NCBI GenBank assembly: GCA_900318565.1
Contig: ONLD01000003.1
Location: 1 to 60,603, forward strand
Direction of reading: 5' to 3'
DNA: 60,603 nucleotides
Source of the DNA: an uncultured Bacteroidales bacterium
GTDB taxonomy: Bacteria; Bacteroidota; Bacteroidia; Bacteroidales; UBA932
Shown here piece after piece: positions 15,625 to 47,416 of the stretch (positions are counted from its first letter, which is position 1; the number at the start of each line of letters is the position of its first letter). The position numbers were made by a program, and so were the translations under genes. The notes below the pieces were generated by a model, which was given only the letters and a program-made list of their open reading frames with translations, made no database searches and was not told where the DNA came from.

Positions 15625-18600
15625 TTAGTTTTGATAGTTGTGCTTGGTACCCCAGACAGGGATAACAACGTCGGTATCGAACTCACCCCAAGAGTAGGTA
15701 AGGGTAACCTTGACCTTCAGGTTGAAGTCGAGAGCATAACCCATATTGTTAGCGTACCAGAACTGCCAACCACTGAGTGCATCAAGATTGGTGATGTCAA
15801 TCTCCTTCTTACCGGAAGTAATAGGATTGGTAGGATTGGCAGGATCAATCAGACCAACGATAGCAGCTTTGTTGACAACCTTGAGGGACTCGAAGGCGCC
15901 GCTACCAGGATTCCTCTGGTCGGTCTCGACGGTGTCAAGGTCGACGATGAGTTTCTGGAATCCATAGTAGTCATACCAGTCAACTTCGCAAGTGGCAGCG
16001 TCGGAGCCGGCAGGATAGTAACCCTTGGTATAGGTCTTGGTGGTCTTGTTGAAGGTGAAGATCGGGTAGTTCTGCCAATCGCGGGCGCTGAACAGAGTGC
16101 CGAAAGGTACGCGGGAACCGGTAGCCTCACCATCAACGAGGTGATTCTCCTCAGGGTTGAACTTCAGGTACACGGGACGCAGGAAGCGGACGTGGATGGT
16201 CTCGACAAGCAGTTCGCAATCGGTAGCGACGGTTCCGGCAGCTGCAGGAACTTTAGCAACGATGTCGACGTTGCAGTAGAGCAGGTGCTCGGCAAGTTCA
16301 GGATTCTCAACCTTCTCCTGAGGGTTGGTACCCCAGTTGATGAGTTTCTTGGTCTTGTCGTTGCAAGCGAAGGTGATGATGCCGTCAGGAGTCAGGGTGA
16401 TAGCCTGAGTGCCGTCCCAGTTGAGGGTACCGTCATCGACCTTGGCCCACTTCTTACCATTGACAGTGATGTCCTTGTTGTTGGCGCTGAAGCGATAGGT
16501 GTAGGTAGCACCTGTTACAGCAGTGGTAGTACCAGCCTTGACAATCTTCACGGTGTTCTCGAGCCAATCGTCATCGATGTCCTTATCGAACTCCGTGACA
16601 GGGCGGGAGTTGGAAGCGTCGCCGGGTTTCCAGTGCAGAGGTACGCGGACGTTGTTACGGACGGTAGCCAGACCGAGGTCGGTCTTTGCATCAGCAGCGA
16701 CGTCGCAATCGTTGAACCAGTAAACAGGGTTCTTCTTGATGAAGCTGACAGCAGGCTTGTCACCGATGGTGAAGGTCAGGCCGATGAACACGTGGTCACC
16801 CTTGGTGTTGGTGAAGTGTGCGTAGAGGGTCTGGCTCTTGCCGACACCGATATTCTCAGCCTGAGTCTTGTCAACGGAGAGCTGGAAGATATCGTTCACA
16901 CCAGTGATATCGGCATCGCCGGTGGTAGCAGTATCCTTCACATAGACAATCTTACCGCGGTTGTACTTGGCTGCAGGAGTTGCAGTGGTAAGCTTGTAAT
17001 CGGAGAGGGCGGTGCCGGTCTTGCCTTCGTCGAGGACATAGGTCTTGTCGGCTTCCCAAGTGTAGTTCTTACGGAACTCGTTGAAGGTGATGCCGAGACC
17101 CTGCTCGAGGACCTGGTAGGACATATCATACCACTTGGTCTCGTTTGCGAGGACTTCGCAAGCATAGCCGAGAGGCTCACCGAAGGTCTTGATATTGAAT
17201 CCGTTCACGGTAGGATCGTAAGGAGGCAGAGCAGTCTCGGAGATCTTGATCTTGAAGTAACCTGCGAGGAGGATCTTGCCGCTCTTGTCAACCAGGGTAG
17301 CGAGAACGATAGGACGACGACCGACAGCGGAGATACCTTCGCCGGCATTGTCTTTATTGATCTTCACGACATCCCAACCGGTACCGGCAGCGTTGGTCTT
17401 GGCATAAGCAGGATCAAACACCTTGGTGTCCTTCTCGATGATACCGAATGCATTCTCGGAAGTCACGTTGGAACCGACAGTGTAGTCGATAAGCTCGTAC
17501 TTGAGGTCGAGTTCAGGATATTTGGCCTGAATTTCAGCGAGAGTGGAGATCTTGGTGTCGCCTTCCACGTGCACACCGACGAAGTCGAGAGCGAAAGGAC
17601 CGCCATTGTACTTAACCTCTACGCTTGCAGGGTTCTCGGCAGCCTCACCAGCGGACTCGAAGAGCATCTTCTTACCAGTGATGACAGGAGTGCCGGCGCA
17701 GTCCTTAGCCTGATAGTTCTTGGTGAATGCAAGGTGCTTAAGCGCCTCGGGGGTAGCAACAACAGCTGCGTAGTCGGAGGTGACTATCTTGTTGTCGTTG
17801 GTCTTGTCAACACCGTAGAGGCTGAGCACGGAAACAACCTTCTGGTTTGCGGTAGAAGGGTTGAGCTTGTCAGCGTTCTTGATGGTGAACTTGACAGCAC
17901 CGATGTTGGTGTTCTTGCGGGAGATGCCCTTGAACTCAGCGCTCCAGCCAGCCTCACCTGCGCGGACCTCGACATAGTCGCGGTCGATGCAGTTGAAGCC
18001 CCACTGGCTCACCTGCTCCTCGAACTTGTAAGCCTGAGGATTGATGTGATACTCGGCAGTCTCTTCAGCGCCAAGGCTGTAGAGGTCGGGGTTACGGCCG
18101 ATCAAAGCGGGAGTGGAGGTGTTCTTTGCCTTGACGCTATAGTTACCGGCATCCTCGTAATCAGTACCGGTAGCAGTACCGGCGACAGTCACATACTGGC
18201 CGCCGAGGTAGTGGTAGTACAGGGCCTCGATGCCGCCATAGTAGAACTGAGGGATGGTAACGATGCTGGCGAGAGTAGCCTTGGTGCTGAAAGTGACAGT
18301 ACCATTCTCTGCGCCGTCAACGTTGAAGAGGGTGAGGGTGCTAGCATCCTTGTCCCAGACAGCGGTGACAGGCTTCTTGCCGTCTGCGAAGACAGGCTTC
18401 ACGGTAGCAGGATCCTCGTTGCTCACGAAGCTGAGGACACCATTGACCTCCTTGATTTCCCAGGAGATACCGTCCTTGCCGTCCTCGCCGTCCTTGCCGG
18501 GCTTGCCGGGATCGCCGGGATCGCCTTTCGGACCTTTGTCGCCAGTGGCCTTGTACTCGGTCTTGACGCCGTCAATGTACCAGTAACCGTCGGCACCGAT

Positions 18601-18957
18601 GGTCACGACGCTGCCGTCCTTGCCATCCTTGCCGTTCTTGCCGTTTTCACCGTTGGTACCGTTGGAACCGTTCTTGCCGTCTTCACCGTCCTTGCCGTCC
18701 TTACCATTGGTAATGTTGTAGGTGGTGGTGGTGCCGTTCTTGTTGACGGTCACTGCGACACCGTCGCTGGTAGCCTTGACATCCTGCAGGACAGCGCCAT
18801 TGTCGAACGCAGCCTGGATTTTGTCAAACTTGGTCGTGAGGTCTTTTACCTGCTTAGTCAGGTCAGCGATCTCTGTGCCATAATCTTTGGTACATCCAGT
18901 CAAAAGTGCAGTACCCGCGAGGGCCAGCACAATTGCGAATCTAAAGATTTTTTTCAT
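15625..18957 (-). CDS. Large surface lipoprotein with coiled coil and collagen-like Gly-X-Y repeats
   Basis: A 1,110-residue protein; start MKKIFRFAIVLALAG, two codons after the first ATG. The lipobox is LTGC (Cys23 or so). A coiled coil (IADLTKQVKDLTTKFDKIQ) is followed by a segment of the DUF4988 style. Two blocks of Gly-X-Y triplets come next (about residues 88-115 and 142-165, rich in GKDGKDGEDGKNG). The remaining 900 residues are beta-rich and not assigned. Codon use is strongly biased: codons whose complement is a stop (TTA, CTA, TCA) are absent, leaving the opposite strand open for over 1,100 codons. Bias of this kind usually marks very high expression. With the strong promoter and the long leader, this may be a major surface-layer or stalk protein (inference). 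Confidence 0.8.
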   Translation of the reverse strand: MKKIFRFAIVLALAGTALLTGCTKDYGTEIADLTKQVKDLTTKFDKIQAAFDNGAVLQDVKATSDGVAVTVNKNGTTTTYNITNGKDGKDGEDGKNGSNGTNGENGKNGKDGKDGSVVTIGADGYWYIDGVKTEYKATGDKGPKGDPGDPGKPGKDGEDGKDGISWEIKEVNGVLSFVSNEDPATVKPVFADGKKPVTAVWDKDASTLTLFNVDGAENGTVTFSTKATLASIVTIPQFYYGGIEALYYHYLGGQYVTVAGTATGTDYEDAGNYSVKAKNTSTPALIGRNPDLYSLGAEETAEYHINPQAYKFEEQVSQWGFNCIDRDYVEVRAGEAGWSAEFKGISRKNTNIGAVKFTIKNADKLNPSTANQKVVSVLSLYGVDKTNDNKIVTSDYAAVVATPEALKHLAFTKNYQAKDCAGTPVITGKKMLFESAGEAAENPASVEVKYNGGPFALDFVGVHVEGDTKISTLAEIQAKYPELDLKYELIDYTVGSNVTSENAFGIIEKDTKVFDPAYAKTNAAGTGWDVVKINKDNAGEGISAVGRRPIVLATLVDKSGKILLAGYFKIKISETALPPYDPTVNGFNIKTFGEPLGYACEVLANETKWYDMSYQVLEQGLGITFNEFRKNYTWEADKTYVLDEGKTGTALSDYKLTTATPAAKYNRGKIVYVKDTATTGDADITGVNDIFQLSVDKTQAENIGVGKSQTLYAHFTNTKGDHVFIGLTFTIGDKPAVSFIKKNPVYWFNDCDVAADAKTDLGLATVRNNVRVPLHWKPGDASNSRPVTEFDKDIDDDWLENTVKIVKAGTTTAVTGATYTYRFSANNKDITVNGKKWAKVDDGTLNWDGTQAITLTPDGIITFACNDKTKKLINWGTNPQEKVENPELAEHLLYCNVDIVAKVPAAAGTVATDCELLVETIHVRFLRPVYLKFNPEENHLVDGEATGSRVPFGTLFSARDWQNYPIFTFNKTTKTYTKGYYPAGSDAATCEVDWYDYYGFQKLIVDLDTVETDQRNPGSGAFESLKVVNKAAIVGLIDPANPTNPITSGKKEIDITNLDALSGWQFWYANNMGYALDFNLKVKVTLTYSWGEFDTDVVIPVWGTKHNYQN

Positions 18958-26118: not shown

Positions 26119-29100
26119 TTATCGCGACTCTATAGCTTCCCTTCCGTCGTCATTGGCTCTGTAGTGAGGTGCGTACAGAGATTCGATCTCGACGGCAGGC
26201 GTCTGGAAACGTCCGGCCTGGGTCACATAGAAGTCTTCCCTGATGGTAGTATTCTCCTCGGGATAGCTGTCGAACCAGTATTCCGTCTTGTCTGCGAGCA
26301 CGTTGCGATAACCCTGGGGAGTGAAATTCCAGCCTCCGTAGCTAAGCGGTCTGAGCCACCAGCCATAGGAGCCGGACAGCTGCTGCACCGGGCGGAAGGA
26401 CGCGGGACGGGGCACGCTGAGTCGCACGAAACTGCGGTTCTCCTCGTTCCAGATGCGGTACTCGGCGCTGATACGGTCGCCCACATTCAGGATTTCGCCA
26501 TCTTCCAGGGGCTTCCCCTCGCGCAGGAACACCCGCTGCACCGTGAAGCCGTTGCCTGCGGCCTTGACCTCGGGGAAAGGCTTGGTGAAGGTGGAGGAAA
26601 GGAGCACCACCTTCGTCGCAAGCGTCTCGGGCGTGCCGCGCAGCACGGAAGCTATGGCCTCAATGTAGGCGGCATCCTTCTCCCACTGCTGCGTCTCTTT
26701 CTGCACCATAATCCAGAGGCGTATGCCTTCGGCCACCTTGAGGGCCTCGGATGCATAAGAAGCCTTGGATGAGTTCTGTGCGGTGGCGGTCAGCAGGTCG
26801 CAGAGCAGGGAGTGCGCATAAAGCTCGCTCTCCATCAGGCCGCGCCAAGGCATCACCGCGTTGGGATAATAGTAACCGCCGCTGCGGTGTTCGACCGCAT
26901 ACTGGAGCAGCGACTCCACGTCGGCGTCCAGCGAGCGGACAAGGCACTTTCTGACGTTGATGCCCCAAGCCTTGGCAAGAGTCTTGCCTCCAGGCAGCAG
27001 CACGAGCGACTGGAGGGTGCGGAGGCGCCGGGCCTTTGCAAGTATCTGCGCATTGAGACCGCGGGCCTTGGCGGGCACCAGATAAGCCTTCACATCTTTC
27101 TTGAACTGCCTGTACACCTTGCCTGAAGGAGCCTCGAAAGGCACCTGCGGGAACAAGGCGCGGGTCTGGAGGTAGAAGGGCAGCGATATGGAGCCGCACC
27201 ACCAGGGCTTGCCCTCGGATGAGAAGTACTCGGCATCGAGATACTTCACCGCGGCGGCCACGTCTATCTTGCCGGCAGCCTCGTCATCGAGCGAATAGAT
27301 TCGCTGCAGCACGGAGGCCGTGACCACGGGCGAGGACTGCATCCCTTCGAACCAGGAGATGCCGCCGCCTGCGTTCTGGCAGGCCGCTATCTTTTCGAGT
27401 ATCTCGCCCAGGAGAGCATTAGGAAGGCCCTGAGCCCCGAGCCGGCGGGCAATCACGTTGGAGTAGTAGGCTTCGGTGAGGCTCAGCACGTCCCGGCCTT
27501 TGGGCTCGATGGAATCGGGAATGGCCGCGCGAATCATATCTATTATGCTGCGCTCCTGCGGGGTGAGGGAGGACGCATCGACATTGACGAATTCGCTGCG
27601 GAGCATAGCTATGAGCGCGTCCCTGTCGGCACCGGCCTTGAGCAGCGCCGAATGGGCCTCGGTAAGCGTCTGCAGAGGGGTCTCCAGCGGAATCTTCACG
27701 AACATCGCATCGGAGACGGAGTCGGGCTCGTCAGAGACGAAGTTGACCAGCACGCCCATCTCGCTGATGCCGGAAGGCACGTCGATGCAGGCTTCGAACG
27801 GCAGGGAGCCGCCTGAAGGGATGGTCACGTGCGCCGACTTGGTGCCGAGGAGCTTGGAGCTCTTGTGATCGGGGCCGTCATAGAAGCGGATGGCAACCTT
27901 GCCGGACACGGAGTTCTCGAGGTTGTTGGAAAGGGTCGCAAGGCAGGTGTATGCGTCTCCGGCATAGAGGAACTGCGGCTGTACCACGGCCACTTTGACC
28001 GGCAGAGAGACCTTCATCTCGCCGCGGAGCACGGCGTTGGTCATCCCTTCTCCGTGGGCAAAGACCTGCACGTAGAAAGTCGAAAGTTTGTCGCCTCCCT
28101 TGCAGTTAAACTCGACGAGGCCGTCTGCGTCCGACCGCAGATTGGGCTCCCAGGCCATCGTGGCGTTGAAATTGTCGCGCACGTGCACTTCGGGGGAGGC
28201 GGACTCTTCCGCCATCTCTACGGCTCCTATATCATTGGACTCCACTCTTGCGGCGGCTTTGGAGCGCATAACGGCCATCTCGGGCATTGCGCCGCCGAGA
28301 GCCATAGCGTCTTCCGCGTAATTAAAATAGTATCGCGAGCCGGAGAATCCGCACACGTTGCTGTAGCTGATGCGGGGCTCAGGCTTGCGGGCGGGCATCA
28401 CCAAAGGCCAGGTGTTGTGCTCGATGGATTCCGTAGCCTTGTCGAACACTGCGACGGCACATTCGACTCCGGCCTCGCTGCGGATCAGGAACTTGCATTC
28501 CTCTCCGGGGGCGGCCGAATCCACGAAGCGCTCGAACTTGAGCGGCAGCCGGCGTACTATCTGCGGAAGCGCTATCCTGCGGGTGTAGCTGTAGGACCGG
28601 CCGTCACGGAAGAACATCACCATAAGCGACAGGCTTTCAGGATACTCGCTCTTGCGGGAATAGCTGACGGTCTTAAGGGAGCCGTCCTTTGCTCGGACGC
28701 CGTCCAGATAGACAATCTGGTGCTCGAGCACCTGGTTGCCGCTGCCGGAGAGCTCGACCACAGCCCAGACAGGCCCGTTGGTCGCTCCTACCTGCAGGGC
28801 GATGTCAGAGCCGCCCAGCTCCTTGAAGAAGCAGTTCACGGGAAGGTCCAGGGCGGTGTCGTCGTCCGCCGCCTTGACGAAGTTGATGCTCGCCGAGGTC
28901 TTGCGCTGTTCGCCCTCGGCGTCCACAGCCGTAACCACGGCCCTGACCTCGTACAGCCCGGAAGGACTTCCCTTGAGGCTGATGGGCAGGACCTGCTGCG
29001 AGGCAGCCTTGCCGGAGGCGATGACCTTGCCGGCGTAGATGAGATCGTATCTGATTGCCAGGCCCTCACGCGTATAACCGCCGGTCTGGAAATCCACCAG

Positions 29101-31254
29101 AGCGTCATCGTCGCGCACAATCCAGTCTCCGGAAGAGGCCTTGGAGGCCCCGGGAATCAGTTCATAGGAGCCCTTGACGAAATTGCGCACGAGCATCGAA
29201 AGAGGAAGATCCCGGTACACGAGACGGGAAGTCTGGAAATCGAGCGTCTCGCCGCTTGCATCGACCACCCGCACCGAGACGGTATAATAGGAATTGTACA
29301 GATTTTCGGTCGGGAACTCCAGCTCGAACGTGCCGTCAGGGCGGATTGTCAACTCTTTCCGCCCTGCGGTCTTGACAACTCCGCTGACGCTGTAAAAGGC
29401 CCTGGCGCTGCCGAGGGAATGGCCGGAAAGGGACTGCACCTTGCCGCTGACGCGGACCTTGTCTCCGGTAAGATAGAGATTGTCGTCCTCGTCCCATTTC
29501 AGTTCGAAGGTAGGAAGCACGAACTCATCCACACGGATACGGCGGGAGGCAAGCGTACCGCCTTTGGACTTGACTTTTATTGTATAATATCCGCCTCTTT
29601 CTCCCTTGGGGAGAGGGAAACTGCCCCAGACCGAGCCGTATTCATTGGTCTTGAGGGTCTTGCTGTCAATCTCATTGTTTTTGGCGTCGAATAGCAAGAC
29701 CTGCACTTCACCGCCCTCGGGCGCAAGCTTATAAGTATATGTGCCGCTGTAGAGTATGGCTTTGAACTGAACTGTCTCATCCGGGGTGAAGGCGGTGCGG
29801 TCCGTCAGAATCACCGCGTGCGAGTAATCGTAATCCACGACTTCGCGCACCTTTCCCGTCACCAGAGAATTCAGATAGACTTCTTCCGACAGGCGCGTGC
29901 GGCCTCCTTCGACGACGCGGGCGACCAACTTGTACTCCCTCTTCTTCTTCTCAATCCTGTTACGGATGGCGTCAGGAAGCAGCGTATAGCAGTCGAGCGC
30001 CACGTCATCCACGTGCATAAGTTCCAGACCGTCAGCATCATAGAGCAGGAAATCACATTTCTCCAGCGGCTTGCCGGTCTTGAAGTCGGCCACATAAGCT
30101 CCATAACCTATGTTGTCGGCACGAAGAGACACCGAAAGAGTGTGTTTTTCATAACGGACAATCTCTTTGCAATCTCCGGATTTGGCTTCGAGCAGATAAC
30201 TGCCGTCGTCGATGTCAGGAAGAGTCACCTTGACCGTGTCTTTCTTATAGTAGCTCCGGGCCTTGTCGGCCACGGATGCCTGATGGGCCGCAAGGTCTTT
30301 TTTATCTTTTATAATATATTGGAAATCACTGATATTGCGGAGTACGAAAGCGGCTTCGTTGCCGCTGATGCTGCATTCGATACTCTTGCTGTCAAGTTCG
30401 GAAATAAGGCTTTCCACGCCTGTGCAACAATCTGCGATAGCCTTTTCGGAGCCGGTAAATGCCTTGCGGTCCTTTTCGAAAGCGCTGCACTTGTCCCGAA
30501 GGGCCTTGAAATCGGAGGAAGGGGTGGACGATTCACGCTCCATCAGCCTGAATTCATACTGGAGGCGCCTCTGTCTCGCCATCATAGAGACCGCCTTGCC
30601 TTTGTAACTCTCGGCGTAGCGGCCGAAGACGGAGTATGAATCCCTGTCCAGCAGCCTGTCGGCGTCAGTGAACTCTATGAACGCCCCGAAAGGATACCGT
30701 CCGTCGTAATAAGACTTGAGCGGTCCCCTGCCGGAATACAGGTACTGGCTCCACAGGGCGTATTCGTAGTCGTTCTTGACAAGAGGCAGAAGAGCCTCGG
30801 AATACAAGGGACGGGCAAGATAACTGTCCCTGCTATAGAACTCGGGATTAAAGTGCGCGGCAAGGTCTTCTTTGTGGTCTGCAACGAACTTTTCGGTCTG
30901 CTCGCCGGACCACAGGTGCCTGCGGTGGTAGTACACCACCACGCTCTCGCCGAACTCGTCGATATCTTTTTCCATCTGCTGACGGGCTTTCTCACGGTCC
31001 TTCCAGTTGATGGAAGAACGCACCGAGACAGCTTCCTGCACGGCGCAATAGAAATCCCAGGCCAGGTGCCTGGAGACGGCCTCAGCCTTGATGGCTTCCA
31101 GAGCCTTAAGCTGATCCTGCGGCTTGTCAGCCGCTTCGGCCTTTTCGTAGGCTTTCCAGAGGCTGACCAGCGTGTGGCCTTTGGAGTCTTTGGTTTGGGA
31201 GAAGGACATCAGCGACAAAAAGATTAGTGTCAGGGTTAGCGATAACTTTTTCAT
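26119..31254 (-). CDS. Alpha-2-macroglobulin family protein
   Basis: A 1,711-residue exported protein with signal peptide (MKKLSLTLTLIFLSLMSFSQ, split as seen). Residues 20-480 are helical repeats and beta domains. MG2-type segments (VILTDRTAFTPDETVQFKAI; about 480-720) and A2M family signatures around AWEPNLRSDADGLVEFNCKG (about 1,060) follow. A long alpha/alpha toroid region lies at 1,180-1,580. The toroid has GGGISWFEGMQSSPVVTASV where thioester-bearing members have CxEQ; there is no such motif. Thus it belongs to the thioester-less class, which may trap proteases or serve in envelope maintenance. It overlaps folC by 4 bases (ATGA). Confidence 0.88.
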   Translation of the reverse strand: MKKLSLTLTLIFLSLMSFSQTKDSKGHTLVSLWKAYEKAEAADKPQDQLKALEAIKAEAVSRHLAWDFYCAVQEAVSVRSSINWKDREKARQQMEKDIDEFGESVVVYYHRRHLWSGEQTEKFVADHKEDLAAHFNPEFYSRDSYLARPLYSEALLPLVKNDYEYALWSQYLYSGRGPLKSYYDGRYPFGAFIEFTDADRLLDRDSYSVFGRYAESYKGKAVSMMARQRRLQYEFRLMERESSTPSSDFKALRDKCSAFEKDRKAFTGSEKAIADCCTGVESLISELDSKSIECSISGNEAAFVLRNISDFQYIIKDKKDLAAHQASVADKARSYYKKDTVKVTLPDIDDGSYLLEAKSGDCKEIVRYEKHTLSVSLRADNIGYGAYVADFKTGKPLEKCDFLLYDADGLELMHVDDVALDCYTLLPDAIRNRIEKKKREYKLVARVVEGGRTRLSEEVYLNSLVTGKVREVVDYDYSHAVILTDRTAFTPDETVQFKAILYSGTYTYKLAPEGGEVQVLLFDAKNNEIDSKTLKTNEYGSVWGSFPLPKGERGGYYTIKVKSKGGTLASRRIRVDEFVLPTFELKWDEDDNLYLTGDKVRVSGKVQSLSGHSLGSARAFYSVSGVVKTAGRKELTIRPDGTFELEFPTENLYNSYYTVSVRVVDASGETLDFQTSRLVYRDLPLSMLVRNFVKGSYELIPGASKASSGDWIVRDDDALVDFQTGGYTREGLAIRYDLIYAGKVIASGKAASQQVLPISLKGSPSGLYEVRAVVTAVDAEGEQRKTSASINFVKAADDDTALDLPVNCFFKELGGSDIALQVGATNGPVWAVVELSGSGNQVLEHQIVYLDGVRAKDGSLKTVSYSRKSEYPESLSLMVMFFRDGRSYSYTRRIALPQIVRRLPLKFERFVDSAAPGEECKFLIRSEAGVECAVAVFDKATESIEHNTWPLVMPARKPEPRISYSNVCGFSGSRYYFNYAEDAMALGGAMPEMAVMRSKAAARVESNDIGAVEMAEESASPEVHVRDNFNATMAWEPNLRSDADGLVEFNCKGGDKLSTFYVQVFAHGEGMTNAVLRGEMKVSLPVKVAVVQPQFLYAGDAYTCLATLSNNLENSVSGKVAIRFYDGPDHKSSKLLGTKSAHVTIPSGGSLPFEACIDVPSGISEMGVLVNFVSDEPDSVSDAMFVKIPLETPLQTLTEAHSALLKAGADRDALIAMLRSEFVNVDASSLTPQERSIIDMIRAAIPDSIEPKGRDVLSLTEAYYSNVIARRLGAQGLPNALLGEILEKIAACQNAGGGISWFEGMQSSPVVTASVLQRIYSLDDEAAGKIDVAAAVKYLDAEYFSSEGKPWWCGSISLPFYLQTRALFPQVPFEAPSGKVYRQFKKDVKAYLVPAKARGLNAQILAKARRLRTLQSLVLLPGGKTLAKAWGINVRKCLVRSLDADVESLLQYAVEHRSGGYYYPNAVMPWRGLMESELYAHSLLCDLLTATAQNSSKASYASEALKVAEGIRLWIMVQKETQQWEKDAAYIEAIASVLRGTPETLATKVVLLSSTFTKPFPEVKAAGNGFTVQRVFLREGKPLEDGEILNVGDRISAEYRIWNEENRSFVRLSVPRPASFRPVQQLSGSYGWWLRPLSYGGWNFTPQGYRNVLADKTEYWFDSYPEENTTIREDFYVTQAGRFQTPAVEIESLYAPHYRANDDGREAIESR

Positions 31255-41756: not shown

Positions 41757-42487
41757 AACGATTGATCAACATATTGTTGCTGCTTTGCGCGATATCCGCC
41801 GGCCTGTCCGCCCAGACTGACCGGAAGGAGGTGCGCGCAGGCAACCGGAAGTTTGCAAAGGGCGGTTTCAAGGAGGCGGAAATCGACTACCGGAAGGCAG
41901 TGGTGAAAGACTCGCTGTCCGTCGCCGGGGCCTACAACCTCGCTTCGACGCTCTACCGCCAGGAAGACTGGGAGGGCGCCGACAAGTCGCTCCAGAGCAT
42001 CAAGGAAGTCGCTCCGGCCACGGAAAACGCCGCCCGCTGGCACTACAACTGCGGCGACGTGGCCCTGCAGAAAAAGGACTACGCAGCGGCGGTGAAGGCT
42101 TTCCGCGAGGCGCTTCTGCTGACTCCGGACGACCTTGACGCCAAGGAGAACTACATCTATGCCAAGAAGATGCTGCAGAACCAGCAGAATGGCGGAGGCC
42201 AGAACCAGGACCAGCAGAACCAGGATCAGCAGCAGAATCAAGACCAGAAAAACCAGCAGGACCAAAATCAGGACCAGAACCAGAATCAACAGGACCAGCA
42301 GCAGAACCAGGACCAGCAGCAACAGGACCAGCAAGGCCAGCAGGGCCAGCAGGAGCAGAAAATCTCCCCCCAGCAGGCCCAGCAGATGCTGAAGGCTATC
42401 CAGGCCAAGGAAAAAGAAACACAGGATAAAGTCAAGAAGGAGAAAGCCCAGATGCTTAAATCCCGCCAGAAAGACAAGAATTGGTAG
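41753..42487 (+). CDS. batC: TPR protein BatC with Gln/Asn/Asp-rich tail
   Basis: A 244-residue exported protein with signal peptide (MKRLINILLLLCAISAGLSA), three TPR-like repeats (about 25-140; YNLASTLYRQEDWEGADKSL, HYNCGDVALQKKDYAAAVKA) and a low-complexity tail built from Q, N and D (about 142-205), ending in a Lys-rich helix. Probably a periplasmic scaffold in the Bat complex. Ends in TAG two bases before the start of batD-batE. Confidence 0.9.
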   Translation: MKRLINILLLLCAISAGLSAQTDRKEVRAGNRKFAKGGFKEAEIDYRKAVVKDSLSVAGAYNLASTLYRQEDWEGADKSLQSIKEVAPATENAARWHYNCGDVALQKKDYAAAVKAFREALLLTPDDLDAKENYIYAKKMLQNQQNGGGQNQDQQNQDQQQNQDQKNQQDQNQDQNQNQQDQQQNQDQQQQDQQGQQGQQEQKISPQQAQQMLKAIQAKEKETQDKVKKEKAQMLKSRQKDKNW

Positions 42488-42489
42488 AA

Positions 42490-45087
42490 ATGAGACGTAT
42501 TGCGACAATACTTATAATGCTTGCCGGCGCCCTGGCCGCTTCAGCCCAGAGCACCATCAAAGTCAACGTGCAGAACCTTGTGGCCGTGGACGAGCAGTTC
42601 AGTGTGACCTTCATCATCGAAGGCGAAGGCAAGCCGTCCTCCTTCAGCTGGGAGCCCGGCAGTGATTTCCAGCTCGTCTGGGGGCCGCAGAAAGGCACCT
42701 CCAGTTCCATCAGCATAATCAACGGCAAGAAGACCCAGTCTTCGCAGACCACCTACACCTACGTCCTGATGCCCCGCACCACCGGCACCTTCCAGCTGCC
42801 GGCCGCCACGGCCACCGTCAAGGGCCAGGAAATCAGTTCCAGGAGCGTCAGCGTGCAGGTCGTCGGCAACGGAGCCCAGCAGCAAGGCGGCTCCCAGCAG
42901 GGCCAGGCCGCCCCGCAGGACAAATCCGGCGCCCAGACCGGGTCCATCCCTTCCGAGGACATTTTCCTGCGGATGAGCGTCAGCAAGACCAAGGCCGTGG
43001 TGGGCGAGACGCTAAGCGCCACCCTTAAGCTCTACCACCGTGTCAACATAGGCGGATTCGAAGACGCCAAGTTCCCTACTTTCAACGGATTCTGGAGCCA
43101 GGAAGTGCAGGCTCCATCCAATATCGAGTTCCACCGCGAGAGCGTGGGCGACCGCATCTACGACGCCGCCGTGCTCCGCAGCTGGACCCTCATTCCCCAG
43201 CAGGCCGGAGAGATTACCATCGACCCTGCCGAGCTTGTGTGCCTCGTCAACGTGCGCACGCAGCACAGCAGTTCCGGAAGCATCTTCGACAGCTTCTTCC
43301 AGGACGACTACCGCACAATACGCAAGAGGGTGACCACCCCCGCAGTAAAGGTGCACGTGTCCAGGATTCCCGCAGGGGCCCCTGCCTCGTTCGGAGGAGG
43401 CGTGGGCAACTTCCGTATGAGCGCCGCGCTGACCCGCGACTCCCTCAAGACCCACGACGCCGCAGCCCTGAAGGTCACCATCACCGGCAAGGGCAATATC
43501 TCGCTGCTTGAAGCGCCCAAGGTGGATTTCCCGCCGGACTTCGAAGTCTATGACATCAAGACCACCGAGTCCGCCGGCAGCAAGACCTTCGAGTATCCCT
43601 TCATCCCCCGCAGCCACGGCGACTTCACCATCGGCCCGGTGGAATACAGCTACTATGATTCCGCCTCCGGCAAGTTCGTCACGCTGCGCAGCGCCGAGAT
43701 GCCCATTCGCGTAGGCAAGAGCGAGGAAGGCGCCCCGGCCCCGCAGGGCAGCGGAGTGCTGACCGTCAACCCCAATCGCAAGGACGTTCGCGACCTGGGC
43801 TCCGACATACGCTTCATATCCACCTCCAGGCCGTCATTCACCAGGAAGGGCTACTTCTTCGCGGGTTCGGGAGCGTTCTGGCTGATTGTGCTGCTGCTCT
43901 CTCTTATCGCAGCAGGAGTGTACTTCGGCATCCGCAGGCTCTCCGCGCGCAGGGCCGACGTGGCCGGCAGCAAGAACAGGGCCGCCACAAAGATGGCCCG
44001 CAAGCGGCTCGCCCTCGCCGGGGATTTCCTGAAAAAAGACCTCTACACGGCATTCTATGAGGAGTTGCATAAGGCGCTGCTGGGCTTCATAGGCGACAAA
44101 CTGAATATACCCGCGGCCGACCAGGACAAAGACACAATCCGCGAGCGGCTGCTCGAAGGCGGCGTGGGAGAAGAGCTCGCAGGCCGCTTCACCGCCCTGC
44201 TCGATGCCTGTGAATTCGCCCGCTACGCCCCGTCGGAAGGTCACGATGCGATGAACGCCCATTTCGAAGGAGCTGTAAACGTGATTTCAGAAATTGATTC
44301 AGTGATGAAGCATAAGACTAAGGGCGGCTCCGGCGCGGCCGCCGTGCTGGCGGTACTGTTGTTGACAGCGCCCGCAGCTTCCCTCTCCGCGCAGGACGCG
44401 CCTGAGAGCCTCTGGGAGCAGGGCGTGAGCGCTTATGGCGAAGCCCGCTGGCAGGATGCCGCCGACGCTTGGAAGCAGATTGCCGACTCCGGGCTCCAGA
44501 GCCCCGTCCTGTACTACAACATAGGCAACGCCTGCTACAAAGGCGGCGAATTGGCCGGCGCAATTCTCTGGTACGAGAGGGCTCTCAAAGCGGATCCTTC
44601 TTATGAAGACGCAAGGGTCAACCTCGCATTCGTGAACCAGCAGATCCAGGACAGGATAGAAGAAGTGCCCGAGTTTTTCCTTGAGGCCTGGGGCCGGAAG
44701 ATGTGCTGGCTGCTGCCCTCAGGGACCTGGGCGGTGCTTTTCCTGCTGCTTTTCGCAGGCACGCTTGCCTGCCTGCTTGTATTCCTGCTGGGTACCGGCC
44801 GGACACGCAAGACAGGCTTCTTCCTCGGGCTTGTCCTCCTGCTCGGCTCCCTGCTCTGCCTGGATTTCGCTTTCTGGCAGCGCAGCGAAGGTCTCAAGCA
44901 GGACAGCGCCGTCGTGATGGAAGCAGTGGCCGAAGTCAAGAGCTCTCCCGGCAGCGGAGTCAACCTTTTCGTGCTTCACGAAGGCACCAAGGTAAAACTC
45001 CTCGAGACCGTGGGCGACTGGCAGAACATAGCCCTCGCCGACGGCCGCCAGGGATGGATTCCCGCCGGCAGCCTTACGGTAATCTAA
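42490..45087 (+). CDS. Fused BatD-BatE protein
   Basis: An 865-residue protein; the start MRRIATILIMLAGALAASAQ gives a good signal peptide and is three codons after the first ATG. Residues 1-600 are BatD-like: two or three beta-sandwich domains, a membrane segment at about 461-480 (WLIVLLLSLIAAGVYFGI) and a cytosolic helical tail (TAFYEELHKALLGFIGDKL). Met606 then starts a BatE-like part: a second signal/membrane segment (AAAVLAVLLLTAPAASLSAQ), TPRs (YYNIGNACYKGGELAGAILW), two membrane segments (about 738-785) and a C-terminal SH3-like domain (KVKLLETVGDWQNIALADG). In related genomes batD and batE are separate. Here one frame runs through without a stop; the BatE part may also start at the internal ATG (44,305). 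Confidence 0.88.
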   Translation: MRRIATILIMLAGALAASAQSTIKVNVQNLVAVDEQFSVTFIIEGEGKPSSFSWEPGSDFQLVWGPQKGTSSSISIINGKKTQSSQTTYTYVLMPRTTGTFQLPAATATVKGQEISSRSVSVQVVGNGAQQQGGSQQGQAAPQDKSGAQTGSIPSEDIFLRMSVSKTKAVVGETLSATLKLYHRVNIGGFEDAKFPTFNGFWSQEVQAPSNIEFHRESVGDRIYDAAVLRSWTLIPQQAGEITIDPAELVCLVNVRTQHSSSGSIFDSFFQDDYRTIRKRVTTPAVKVHVSRIPAGAPASFGGGVGNFRMSAALTRDSLKTHDAAALKVTITGKGNISLLEAPKVDFPPDFEVYDIKTTESAGSKTFEYPFIPRSHGDFTIGPVEYSYYDSASGKFVTLRSAEMPIRVGKSEEGAPAPQGSGVLTVNPNRKDVRDLGSDIRFISTSRPSFTRKGYFFAGSGAFWLIVLLLSLIAAGVYFGIRRLSARRADVAGSKNRAATKMARKRLALAGDFLKKDLYTAFYEELHKALLGFIGDKLNIPAADQDKDTIRERLLEGGVGEELAGRFTALLDACEFARYAPSEGHDAMNAHFEGAVNVISEIDSVMKHKTKGGSGAAAVLAVLLLTAPAASLSAQDAPESLWEQGVSAYGEARWQDAADAWKQIADSGLQSPVLYYNIGNACYKGGELAGAILWYERALKADPSYEDARVNLAFVNQQIQDRIEEVPEFFLEAWGRKMCWLLPSGTWAVLFLLLFAGTLACLLVFLLGTGRTRKTGFFLGLVLLLGSLLCLDFAFWQRSEGLKQDSAVVMEAVAEVKSSPGSGVNLFVLHEGTKVKLLETVGDWQNIALADGRQGWIPAGSLTVI

Positions 45088-45180
45088 GCTCTTTGTTCCC
45101 GACGATATTGCCCGCCTCCGGGGTCGTGTGTAAACAGAAGCCGCGGTTCGGGCCCGAGAAAGCCAATCTCGGGCCCGCGT

Positions 45181-45289
45181 GCATACGGCCGCTGCGGATT
45201 CCTATCTCCCGAGTGCGCAACTGCCCCTTTTGCACACGGCCGCCGCGATGTTCCGACTCCCGTGTGCGCAACTGCCCCCTTTCACACAC
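45181..45289. repeat. Repeat family 1, 51-52-bp pitch, inverted GTGTGC/GCACAC arms
   Basis: About 2.3 units starting at 45,181, 45,232 and 45,284 (acAcACGGCCG in the last). Units join as CCGTGTGC-N15-GCACACGG, with arms at 45,211-45,216/45,232-45,237 and 45,262-45,267/45,284-45,289 (one or two mismatches each). The linker reads GCGATGTTCCGACTC. The layout of short inverted arms around about 15 bases is the same as in the large array, but the sequence is different. Confidence 0.75.
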
Positions 45290-45358
45290 GGCCGCTGCGA
45301 TGTTCCGACTCCAATGAGTGATACAATCTTTTCTTGAGGGCGATTTATGAGAGACACC

Positions 45359-45444
45359 GTGACTAAAGTACAAGAGATGGACCTTCAGTCACGATTTACC
45401 CGTGCTTCCTTGACCGAAAGTACAACCTATGGACCATCAGTCAC
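45359..45444. repeat. Repeat family 3, two units 52 bp apart
   Basis: Two copies of about 34 bp share AAAGTACAA, ATGGACC and CAGTCAC, and are offset by exactly 52 bases (AAAGTACA at 45,365 and 45,417; AGTCAC at 45,387 and 45,439). The first copy has inverted arms GTGACT and AGTCAC with 22 bases between; the second keeps TGAC/GTCA. They lie directly before the 21-unit array. Confidence 0.65.
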
Positions 45445-45475
45445 ACCAGACAACCGGTTCCCACGCATTCCGCGT

Positions 45476-46552
45476 GGTCTCGGTGCTTGAAGTGGGACGA
45501 GACTGTTGGTTTTCGGGGAATCCGAGTGGTCTCGGTGCCGGGGAAGGGACGAGACTACCTATTTCAAGGGAATCCGCGTGGTCTCGGTGTCAGAAGAGGG
45601 ACGAGACTGTCGGTTTCAGGGAAATCCGTGCGGTCTCGGTGCTGAAGGAGGGACGAGACTGCAGGTTTTCGGTGGATTTCGTGTGGTCTCGGTGCTGAAG
45701 GAGGGACGAGACTGCTGATTTCGGGAGAATCCGCGTGGTCTCGGTGCCTGAAGTGGGACGAGACTGCTGATTTCGGGGGATTCCAGGTGGTCTCGGTGCT
45801 GAAGGAGGGACGAGACTGCCGTTTTCCGAGGATTCCGAGTGGTCTCGGTGCCGGGAGAGGGACGAGACTGTCGATTTCCGGGGAATCCGAGTGGTCTCGG
45901 TGCCGAAGGAGGGACGAGACTGTCGGTTTCAGGGAAATCCGAGTGGTCTCGGTGCTTGAAGTGGGACGAGACTGCTGGTTTCGGGGGATTCCAGGTGGTC
46001 TCGGTGCCGGGAGAGGGACGAGACTGTCGGTTTTCGGGGATTCCGAGTGGTCTCGGTGCTTGAAGTGGGACGAGACTGCAGGTTTTCGGGGATTCCGAGT
46101 GGTCTCGGTGCTTGAAGTGGGACGAGACTGCTGGTTTCGGGCGAATCCGCGTGGTCTCGGTGCCGGAAGAGGGACGAGACTGTCGGTATCCGTGGATTCC
46201 GTGCGGTCTCGGTGCCGGGAGAGGGACGAGACTGTCGGTTTTCGGGGATTCCGAGTGGTCTCGGTGCTTGGAGAGGGACGAGACTGCTGGTTTCGGGCGA
46301 TTCCGTGTGGTCTCGGTGCTTGAAGTGGGACGAGACTGCAGGTTTTCGGGGATTCCGTGCGGTCTCGGTGCCGATGGAGGGACGAGACTGCTGATTTCGG
46401 GCGAATCCGTGCGGTCTCGGTGCCAAAGTAGGGACGAGACTATCGGTTTCCAACGATTCCGTGTGGTCTCGGTGCCGGGAGAGGGACGAGACTGCAGGTT
46501 TTCGGGGATTTCGTGTGGTCTCGGTGCCGAAGGAGGGACGAGACCACACGGA
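45476..46552. repeat. 21-unit tandem array, 52-bp pitch, two-armed 28-bp core
   Basis: Units begin (GGTCTCGGTG) at 45,476, 45,528, 45,580, 45,632, 45,685 and then every 52 bases to 46,517; only the 4th step is 53. Each has a 28-bp core: GGTCTCGGTG, 8 variable bases, GGGACGAGAC; both half-sites are invariant in all 21 units and contain the inverted GTCTCG/CGAGAC. The 24-bp linker is a mosaic of a few variants (mostly tcGGTTTTCGGGGATTCCGAGT-like, split by position). The array ends with CGAGACCACACGG, the inverse of the sequence at its left edge (CCGCGTGGTCTCG). A second pairing, CCGAG/CTCGG, spans each linker-core junction when the linker ends CCGAGT. Confidence 0.95.
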
Positions 46553-46656
46553 TTGCGGGTGCCGTGGTGAAGACAGGCCACGGAACTTCTATGCGCGGTC
46601 TTTGCCGCCGGCTTCTACCTGGGGCAGTGGCCGTCCGATAGTGTCTTTGTTCGCCT

Positions 46657-46690
46657 TTTGATGATTATTCCGGAATTTTGATTATATTTG
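46657..46690 (+). promoter_or_regulatory. Promoter of exbB-exbD-tonB
   Basis: TTTG at 46,657-46,660, a 22-base spacer, TATATTTG at 46,683-46,690; the exbB ATG is at 46,712. Spacer is at the long end of the normal range. Confidence 0.6.
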
Positions 46691-46711
46691 TAAGTTAAAG
46701 AATTTATTGAT

Positions 46712-47416
46712 ATGCTACGCTTCTTACTTCAGGCCGACATCGTGGATGCGGTACAGGCCGCTCCGGTCCAGCAGGAAATGTCTTACTCACTTATTGATAT
46801 GGCCGTCAAGGGCGGCTGGCTGATGATTGTGCTTCTGGCGCTTTCCATCGTGGCCATCTACATCTTCGGCAAGAAATGGTGGATGATCCGCCAGGCCTCC
46901 AAGGTTGACAAAGACTTTATGATGGATATCCGCGACTATATCCACGACGGCAAGATCAAGTCCGCAAAGACCCTGTGTTCCAAGTTCGACACTCCCGTTG
47001 CCCGAATGGTGGAGAGCGGCATCGACCGCATAGGCAAGCCCCTCGGAGACATCCAGACCGCAATCGAGAACGTCGGCAACGTGGAAGTGGCCCGCCTTGA
47101 AAAGGGACTTCCCTATCTCGCTATGATAGCCGGCGGCGCCCCTATGATCGGATTCCTCGGCACCGTGATGGGTATGGTCCAGGCCTTCTTCAATATGTCC
47201 CAGGCCGGCAACAACATCGACATCACCCTCCTTTCCAGCGGTATCTACACCGCAATGATCACAACGGTCGGCGGCCTTATCGTGGGCATCATCGCCTACT
47301 TCGGCTACAACTACCTGACCTCGAAGGTGTCCAACGTCGTGTTCCAGATGGAGAGCAGCACCATCGAGTTTATGGATCTTCTGGACGAGCCCGTCGCAAC
47401 TAAAGAAGCAGAGTAA
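46712..47416 (+). CDS. exbB: ExbB/TolQ/MotA-family proton channel protein
   Basis: A 234-residue inner-membrane protein. Membrane segments at about 34-54 (GGWLMIVLLALSIVAIYIFG), 138-160 (MIAGGAPMIGFLGTVMGMV) and 172-200 (SGIYTAMITTVGGLIVGIIA). The family motif GAPMIGFLGTVMGMVQAF is intact. With ExbD and TonB it converts proton-motive force into energy for TonB-dependent outer-membrane receptors. One-base overlap with exbD (TAATG). Confidence 0.95.
   Translation: MLRFLLQADIVDAVQAAPVQQEMSYSLIDMAVKGGWLMIVLLALSIVAIYIFGKKWWMIRQASKVDKDFMMDIRDYIHDGKIKSAKTLCSKFDTPVARMVESGIDRIGKPLGDIQTAIENVGNVEVARLEKGLPYLAMIAGGAPMIGFLGTVMGMVQAFFNMSQAGNNIDITLLSSGIYTAMITTVGGLIVGIIAYFGYNYLTSKVSNVVFQMESSTIEFMDLLDEPVATKEAE

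Follow-up and report, generated by a model that had tools for sequence, protein, structure and literature searches.

What produces, and what keeps in register, a tandem array whose units repeat at an almost exact 52 bp in the genome of an uncultured Bacteroidales bacterium? The whole stretch of DNA that was analysed, hereafter the window, was 60,603 nucleotides long, and the array (45476..46544, forward strand) consisted of 21 REP-like units arranged head-to-tail. Each unit carried the core GTCTCGGTG-N8-GGGACGAGAC, with the inverted repeat GTCTCG/CGAGAC lying inside the half-sites and 15 bases between its arms. A search with the pattern GGTCTCGGTG-N8-GGGACGAGAC returned 21 exact matches in the window, the first base being at 45476 and the last at 46544, and neighbouring matches started 52 bp apart in 19 cases and 53 bp apart in the remaining one (45632 to 45685). 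The half-sites were the same in 21/21 units, while variation was found in the centre and the linker. The array could also be recovered by TRF, with a period of 52, 20.7 copies and 80% matches. The 21-unit array with near-exact pitch and invariant half-sites reported in the preliminary description is real. In all likelihood it is part of a variant form of the known RAYT/REP system, one in which the spacing is unusually exact.

The draft genome (2.31 Mb in 104 contigs, 96.5% complete) contained 58 occurrences of the exact core. When a 19-base core was searched with up to three mismatches, 88 matches were obtained (77 exact, nine with one mismatch, one with two and one with three), and the three-mismatch match, located on another contig, looks like a chance hit. 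The reversed control pattern of the 19-base core gave no match genome-wide against 87 matches at up to two mismatches, so the recurrence of the core is beyond chance. Of these 87 cores, 86 were units of ten arrays, and the other one stood by itself as a stray copy on contig C42. Three of the arrays were located on C27 and one each on C29, C30, C33, C39, C40, C42 and C74, making eight contigs, and they ranged from 3 to 21 units. All ten were oriented head-to-tail, and REPIN-type units, in which two REPs are inverted, were seen in none of them. Dispersal in intergenic DNA, as in REPtrons, was apparent from the ten arrays on eight contigs, the window array lying between two conserved genes; for the other nine the intergenic check was rough, being based on longest ORFs, some of which crossed the repeats themselves. 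Array orientation could be compared with GC skew only at values near zero and of mixed sign. Contigs C40 and C74 terminated within arrays of this unit; those two array lengths are therefore minimal, and the repeats probably broke the assembly there.

Genome-wide, adjacent units were 52 bp apart in 75 of 76 steps. Departures from the consensus, counted as differences and not as independent events, amounted to 11/1653 in the core and 826/2871 outside it, so that variability in the core was some 40-fold lower than elsewhere in the unit. In neutral DNA, more length changes than one would be expected beside 826 differences. The strong conservation of the half-sites and a pitch far stricter than the linker sequence, both noted in the preliminary description, are thus borne out over the whole genome. 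Unrelated spacers of the CRISPR type were not seen among the linkers, which agreed with their consensus at 2045/2871 non-core positions, unlike in a CRISPR array.

A candidate enzyme could be identified on C27. The gene (C27:27661-28512) encodes a RAYT-related Y1/HUH transposase of 284 aa, which matched Pfam Y1_Tnp with 25.3 bits (cut-off 23) and was the sole match to that family in the genome at E 0.001. Arrays of the unit flanked it on both sides (27446-27577 and 28584-29443), ending 83 bp ahead of its ATG and resuming 68 bp past its stop, the arrangement of a gene flanked by its repeat family that characterizes REPtrons. The HUH motif and catalytic tyrosine expected of a REPtron enzyme were also present, H50, H52 and Y110 being invariant in 61/61 sequences and N49 conserved in 98% of the transposase sequences; H52 and Y110 were 58 positions apart, and the tyrosine motif read YxxMN. 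Both Y1_Tnp and NCBIfam REP_Tyr_transpos were matched at E 0.01 by 21/21 scanned clade members, the C27 protein itself scoring 31.2 bits (E 1.7e-7) against REP_Tyr_transpos, which is under the 80-bit equivalog cut-off. The C-terminal half contained D220, Q265 and R268 among its invariant residues and looks helix-turn-helix-like, a feature that the Pfam scan did not confirm in this half. The single C27 sequence matched no solved structure, and a profile search of solved structures gave weak matches to one ribosomal protein (E 0.11) and five transposase sequences (E 0.18-0.7).

The protein search revealed six homologous stretches in the genome, including C27, which carries the one full-length member of the close clade found there; the best paralogue was 43% identical. 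An IS200/IS605 insertion sequence was considered and rejected, as near-identical transposase copies were not found in this draft, from which copies may be missing. Four of the five stretches other than C27 (C85, C91, C50 and C29; that on C85 is cut by the contig end) had nearby repeats of other sequence with a lag of 51 or 52, and the fifth, a fragment on C9 of 34 codons with stops, had no such repeat within 6 kb. Three more distant transposases of the same genome matched none of the NCBIfam families.

The spacer that holds the window array (45088..46711) was 1624 bp long and lay between two genes of the same strand. Upstream was an 868-aa ORF (42481..45087, forward strand), the end of which was used for synteny, and downstream a gene (46712..47416, forward strand) that we take to be ExbB/TolQ-like, which was matched in 60/61 genomes of the genus, one of them at only 32% identity. 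The downstream gene was recovered at 30 loci, 29 without our own, and the upstream gene was found within 1.5 kb in 7/29; at the other 22 it was not seen within that distance, so these loci are uninformative on an empty site. The matching spacers of the seven relatives measured about 50, 50, 55, 81, 132, 170 and 402 bp, against 1624 bp here; neither half-site was found in them, so the array was absent in 7/7. The exact core was likewise found in 0/60 relatives, and in the close relative L124 the region was rearranged or the downstream gene reversed in the locus. In a broad set of contigs, from which near relatives may have been excluded, the only match in other genomes was a single unit in a Nitrospirae contig, which by our own estimate is about the chance level for 20 fixed bases. 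The preliminary description had suggested a chromosome-organising or segregation site, and had named absence from close relatives and from long-read assemblies of this organism as what would speak against its reading. Of these, the absence from relatives is what the search found, in exact cores and in spacers alike, and it tells against a site of that kind.

Other repeats shared the spacer. Two hairpins, GTGACT...AGTCAC and TTGACC...AGTCAC, were located 51-52 bp apart at 45359..45444 (forward strand), and TRF detected 2.6 copies of another 52-bp unit with GTGTGC...GCACAC arms at 45180..45312 (forward strand). A strict pattern for the GTGACT family matched the window copy only. Because the GTGACT/AGTCAC stem resembles that in the flank of the C85 fragment, repeats belonging to more than one transposase seem to have gathered in this spacer. 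On C33 (L016 3475-3680), the four-unit array was immediately followed by yet another repeat, about 52 bp in length and with arms GGGTGT...ACACCC. Two repeats of a different nature were seen elsewhere in the window: 9/18-bp repeats at 18470-18702 within a minus-strand ORF of 1112 aa, Gly-X-Y-like by eye, and an imperfect 33-bp repeat with CAG/AAC codons where a coding region ends (42200-42352).

The pitch could be followed beside related transposases in other genomes. With the single protein as query, a homologue was detected at E 0.001 in 193/299 genomes drawn from the family, and 120 loci among the matches listed were compared, 60 from the close clade, whose members were about 40-51% identical to the C27 protein, and 60 more distant. 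Among the matches listed, a 51/52 repeat occurred within 1 kb at 39/60 close-clade loci, leaving 21/60 without one, versus 2/60 distant loci (Fisher 1.3e-13). When ungapped self-matches were counted around the first 60 genes (40 close and 20 distant), lags of 51/52 accounted for 28 repeats over the 152 kb that lay no further than 1.3 kb from the genes, compared to one over the 412 kb beyond 4 kb at the same loci (binomial tail 2.6e-15; again among the matches listed). The best lag between 45 and 60 was 51 or 52 in 37/41 loci, the rest being 48, 50, 50 and 58. The repeat unit sequences differed from locus to locus at this pitch. Since the 51/52 pitch recurs with other repeat sequences, the spacing is either selected or mechanistically fixed. 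A random-walk simulation of the pitch was set aside as circular, its loci all having been preselected for 51/52.

A quick tree with 125 rows gave an SH-aLRT of 100 to the group formed by the close clade and two of the genome's own sequences (62 rows), and placed three remoter own sequences on long branches. On the tree, a minimum of 11 switches between pitches of 51 and 52 was counted. The distant-clade loci among the matches listed displayed scattered lags (73, 74, 84, 81, 104 and others), and whole helical turns as a general rule were rejected on these mixed lags. Tandem repeats of 73 bp (three), 74 bp (one) and 84 bp (one) were observed at the distant loci L113, L115, L118, L187 and L107. 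A clade profile matched 1/395 genomes over the phylum at E 1e-20, namely this genome, and 2/247 over the order at E 1e-15, this genome and one of its genus. The phylum, order and family samples differ in thresholds and queries, and the broad samples are poor in family genomes; read with this limit, the close transposase group looks like a lineage-specific elaboration.

With 51/52 bp amounting to about five turns of the helix, the units might form a helically phased platform on which the RAYT or a host factor binds double-stranded dyad sites cooperatively along one face of the DNA, shaping or silencing the chromosome. The nearly invariant core, the single length change beside so many differences outside it and the recurrence of the pitch with other sequences are all in its favour. 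However, the exact core is missing from all 60 relatives and the array from all seven informative sites, the lags of the distant clades are not all whole turns, and the pitch switched repeatedly between 51 and 52, with a spread that slow drift might also give. We consider such a platform unlikely. A minisatellite growing by replication slippage or unequal crossing over, with the transposase nearby by coincidence, would suit the head-to-tail units, the range of array sizes and the contigs that end inside arrays; it leaves unexplained the ten dispersed arrays, the flanking of a single transposase gene by two of them, the recurrence of the pitch at 39/60 related genes among the matches listed and the roughly 40-fold lower variability of the core, and is in our judgement very improbable as a full account. 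Within the RAYT explanation, too, changes in array length may well owe something to slippage.

The units near close-clade genes often shared a hairpin with a variable stem around a 15-base loop that starts with TCC or GTCC. Among the matches listed, this hairpin was found at 37/62 close loci and not at 25/62, and at the 40 loci with long flanks it was present in 23/40 compared to 15/103 control windows (Fisher 9e-7). The scan used 9-pair stems with at least seven paired and wobbles counted as half, and the controls were the outer windows of the same loci; as the hairpins were chosen for pairing, their complementarity is no independent evidence of covariation. For stems of at least 7/8 pairs with motif-start loops, the close genes among the matches listed gave 55 hairpins with loops of 15 (expected 11.8), 43 with loops of 17 (7.2) and 20 with loops of 13, against 7.1 expected from the outer regions. 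The distant genes among the matches listed gave ten at a loop of 17 (versus 4.6) and three at 15 (versus 4.1). In units from 44 loci defined without regard to pairing, perfect stems of at least 6 bp were commonest at odd loops of 15-19 (18 loci for a loop of 15, 24 for 17 and 19 for 19), a spread indicating that the loop length is less sharp without the motif.

As expected of a REPtron, the repeat was specific to its transposase. Stem distance and transposase distance were correlated over 37 loci, near-identical orthologues included (Mantel rho 0.226, p 0.0005), and also when only pairs below 60% identity were considered (rho 0.148, p 0.005). The hairpin of genome G301 occurred in 1/20 genomes, with eight exact copies in G301 (four at the transposase and four elsewhere) and none in the 19 others. 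The GT[AG]G foot of REPtrons was found in 1/32 clade hairpins, the 37 minus five near-identical orthologues, and that one was the unit of this genome; there, GT[AG]G stood directly 5' of the 6-bp stem in 0/86 units and overlapped the first stem base in 48/86. CGTC spanned the stem/loop edge in 16/32 clade hairpins. Within the unit family, pairing beyond the 6-bp stem was not above shuffles. Folded as DNA, the strand with the TCCC loop, which is the loop of the clade, was no better than shuffles (z -0.11), and the opposite strand was better (z -2.19). The alternative that the array is transcribed, be it as a small RNA, a site of RNA processing or a block of terminators, could draw on the inverted repeat with its 15-base loop and on this better-folding strand, but it is the least credible of the explanations considered, given that 45050-46720 yielded no match to Rfam models up to E 1 and no terminator-like or sigma-70-type promoter-like site (shuffles 1.8 and 0.4).

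The RAYT explanation is preferred: with a probability of roughly 0.8, the array consists of tandem REP-like hairpins served by the RAYT-type Y1/HUH single-strand transposase encoded on C27. The C27 gene between its two arrays, the exact pitch, the gene-specific stems and the array-free relatives establish association, specificity and lineage-specific presence. In the proposed mechanism, the RAYT would recognise a folded single strand through the stem and the loop-proximal bases, cut each unit at a fixed place and then join the strands. Arrays would grow and shrink by whole units of 52 bases, and other intergenic sites could be seeded with new arrays. TnpA_REP is described as cutting single-stranded DNA next to its hairpin, after which the strand can be rejoined (PMC8266576); if the same cut-and-join chemistry acted on hairpins in tandem, arrays would gain or lose entire units, which would account for an exact pitch within them. 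The pitch may be maintained by the need for two adjacent hairpins to fit within a single enzyme assembly, or by excision that always releases one unit. The 51/52 unit beside many transposases could reflect either descent from one ancestral unit or a requirement imposed by the enzyme assembly, and slow drift may fit too. A bolder proposal, which we offer tentatively and at odds well short of even, is that lineage-restricted RAYTs with a long C-terminal part assemble on hairpins five turns apart, and that this assembly copies the arrays by whole units and also lends them a function in the cell, the protein setting the pitch while the stems change. The multiplication of REPs is still poorly understood, according to the abstract of PMC8266576. 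Here, a single clade supplies dozens of natural enzyme/hairpin pairs in which the loop is fixed and the pitch nearly so while the stems differ, which makes recognition and array growth directly testable.

Several components of this system have published counterparts, namely REP/RAYT itself and Bacteroidetes RAYTs with atypical structures (PMC6006769), tandem REP arrays (PMC3116915) and CGTC palindromes (PMC3733652). A close likeness is to the REP/RAYT (TnpA_REP) REPtrons as described in the main text of PMC6006769, where a Y1/HUH gene stands between its own palindromic repeats, with dispersed copies and a repeat specific to its transposase. Unlike in those REPtrons, there is no clade-wide GT[AG]G foot here, the common part being the loop (TCC...), the units are in tandem at a pitch of 51/52, and the 284-aa protein does not reach the NCBIfam equivalog cut-off; that main text uses neither the word tandem nor the word array. 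Subclass 2.6 (RAYT group 5) of the Bacteroidetes, described in the same source, shares the phylum, atypical structures beside the gene and copies elsewhere, but it has a median of 179 aa, a HuH-Y distance of 82 and the motif YIH[QN]NP, compared to 284 aa, 58 and YxxMN here.

Tandem organisation is known from the REP/REPIN arrays of Pseudomonas fluorescens SBW25, which include ordered tandem REPs and REPIN clusters adjoining RAYT genes (PMC3116915), and from the BIMEs of E. coli, which are frequent as tandem copies (PMC8266576). In those accounts the arrays consist of inverted pairs or combine two REP types spaced 72 and 112 bp, and most REPINs are single, whereas one unit type is used here, head-to-tail, with 86/87 copies in arrays. 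The GTAG- and CGTC-tagged repeats (PMC3733652) are also short dispersed palindromes, and CGTC is shared, at the stem/loop edge in our clade. In the tagged repeats as reported there, CGTC is terminal, loops are mostly 4-5, stems 8-9 and head-to-tail dimers negligible, in contrast to the loop of 15 and the exclusively head-to-tail order observed here. The BrickBuilt MITE of Porphyromonas gingivalis (PMC4596501) is likewise an intergenic tandem repeat at several genomic places; it has a 23-nt unit without spacers in a MITE with leader and tail, and its abstract draws no link to a RAYT. In the literature covered, mostly the main text of papers open without subscription, no description was found of a RAYT system that combines a conserved loop with a 51/52-bp pitch, nor of a RAYT in Bacteroidales. 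On these comparisons, the loop-conserved RAYT hairpins at a pitch of 51/52 bp are best read as a new form of the known REP/RAYT system.
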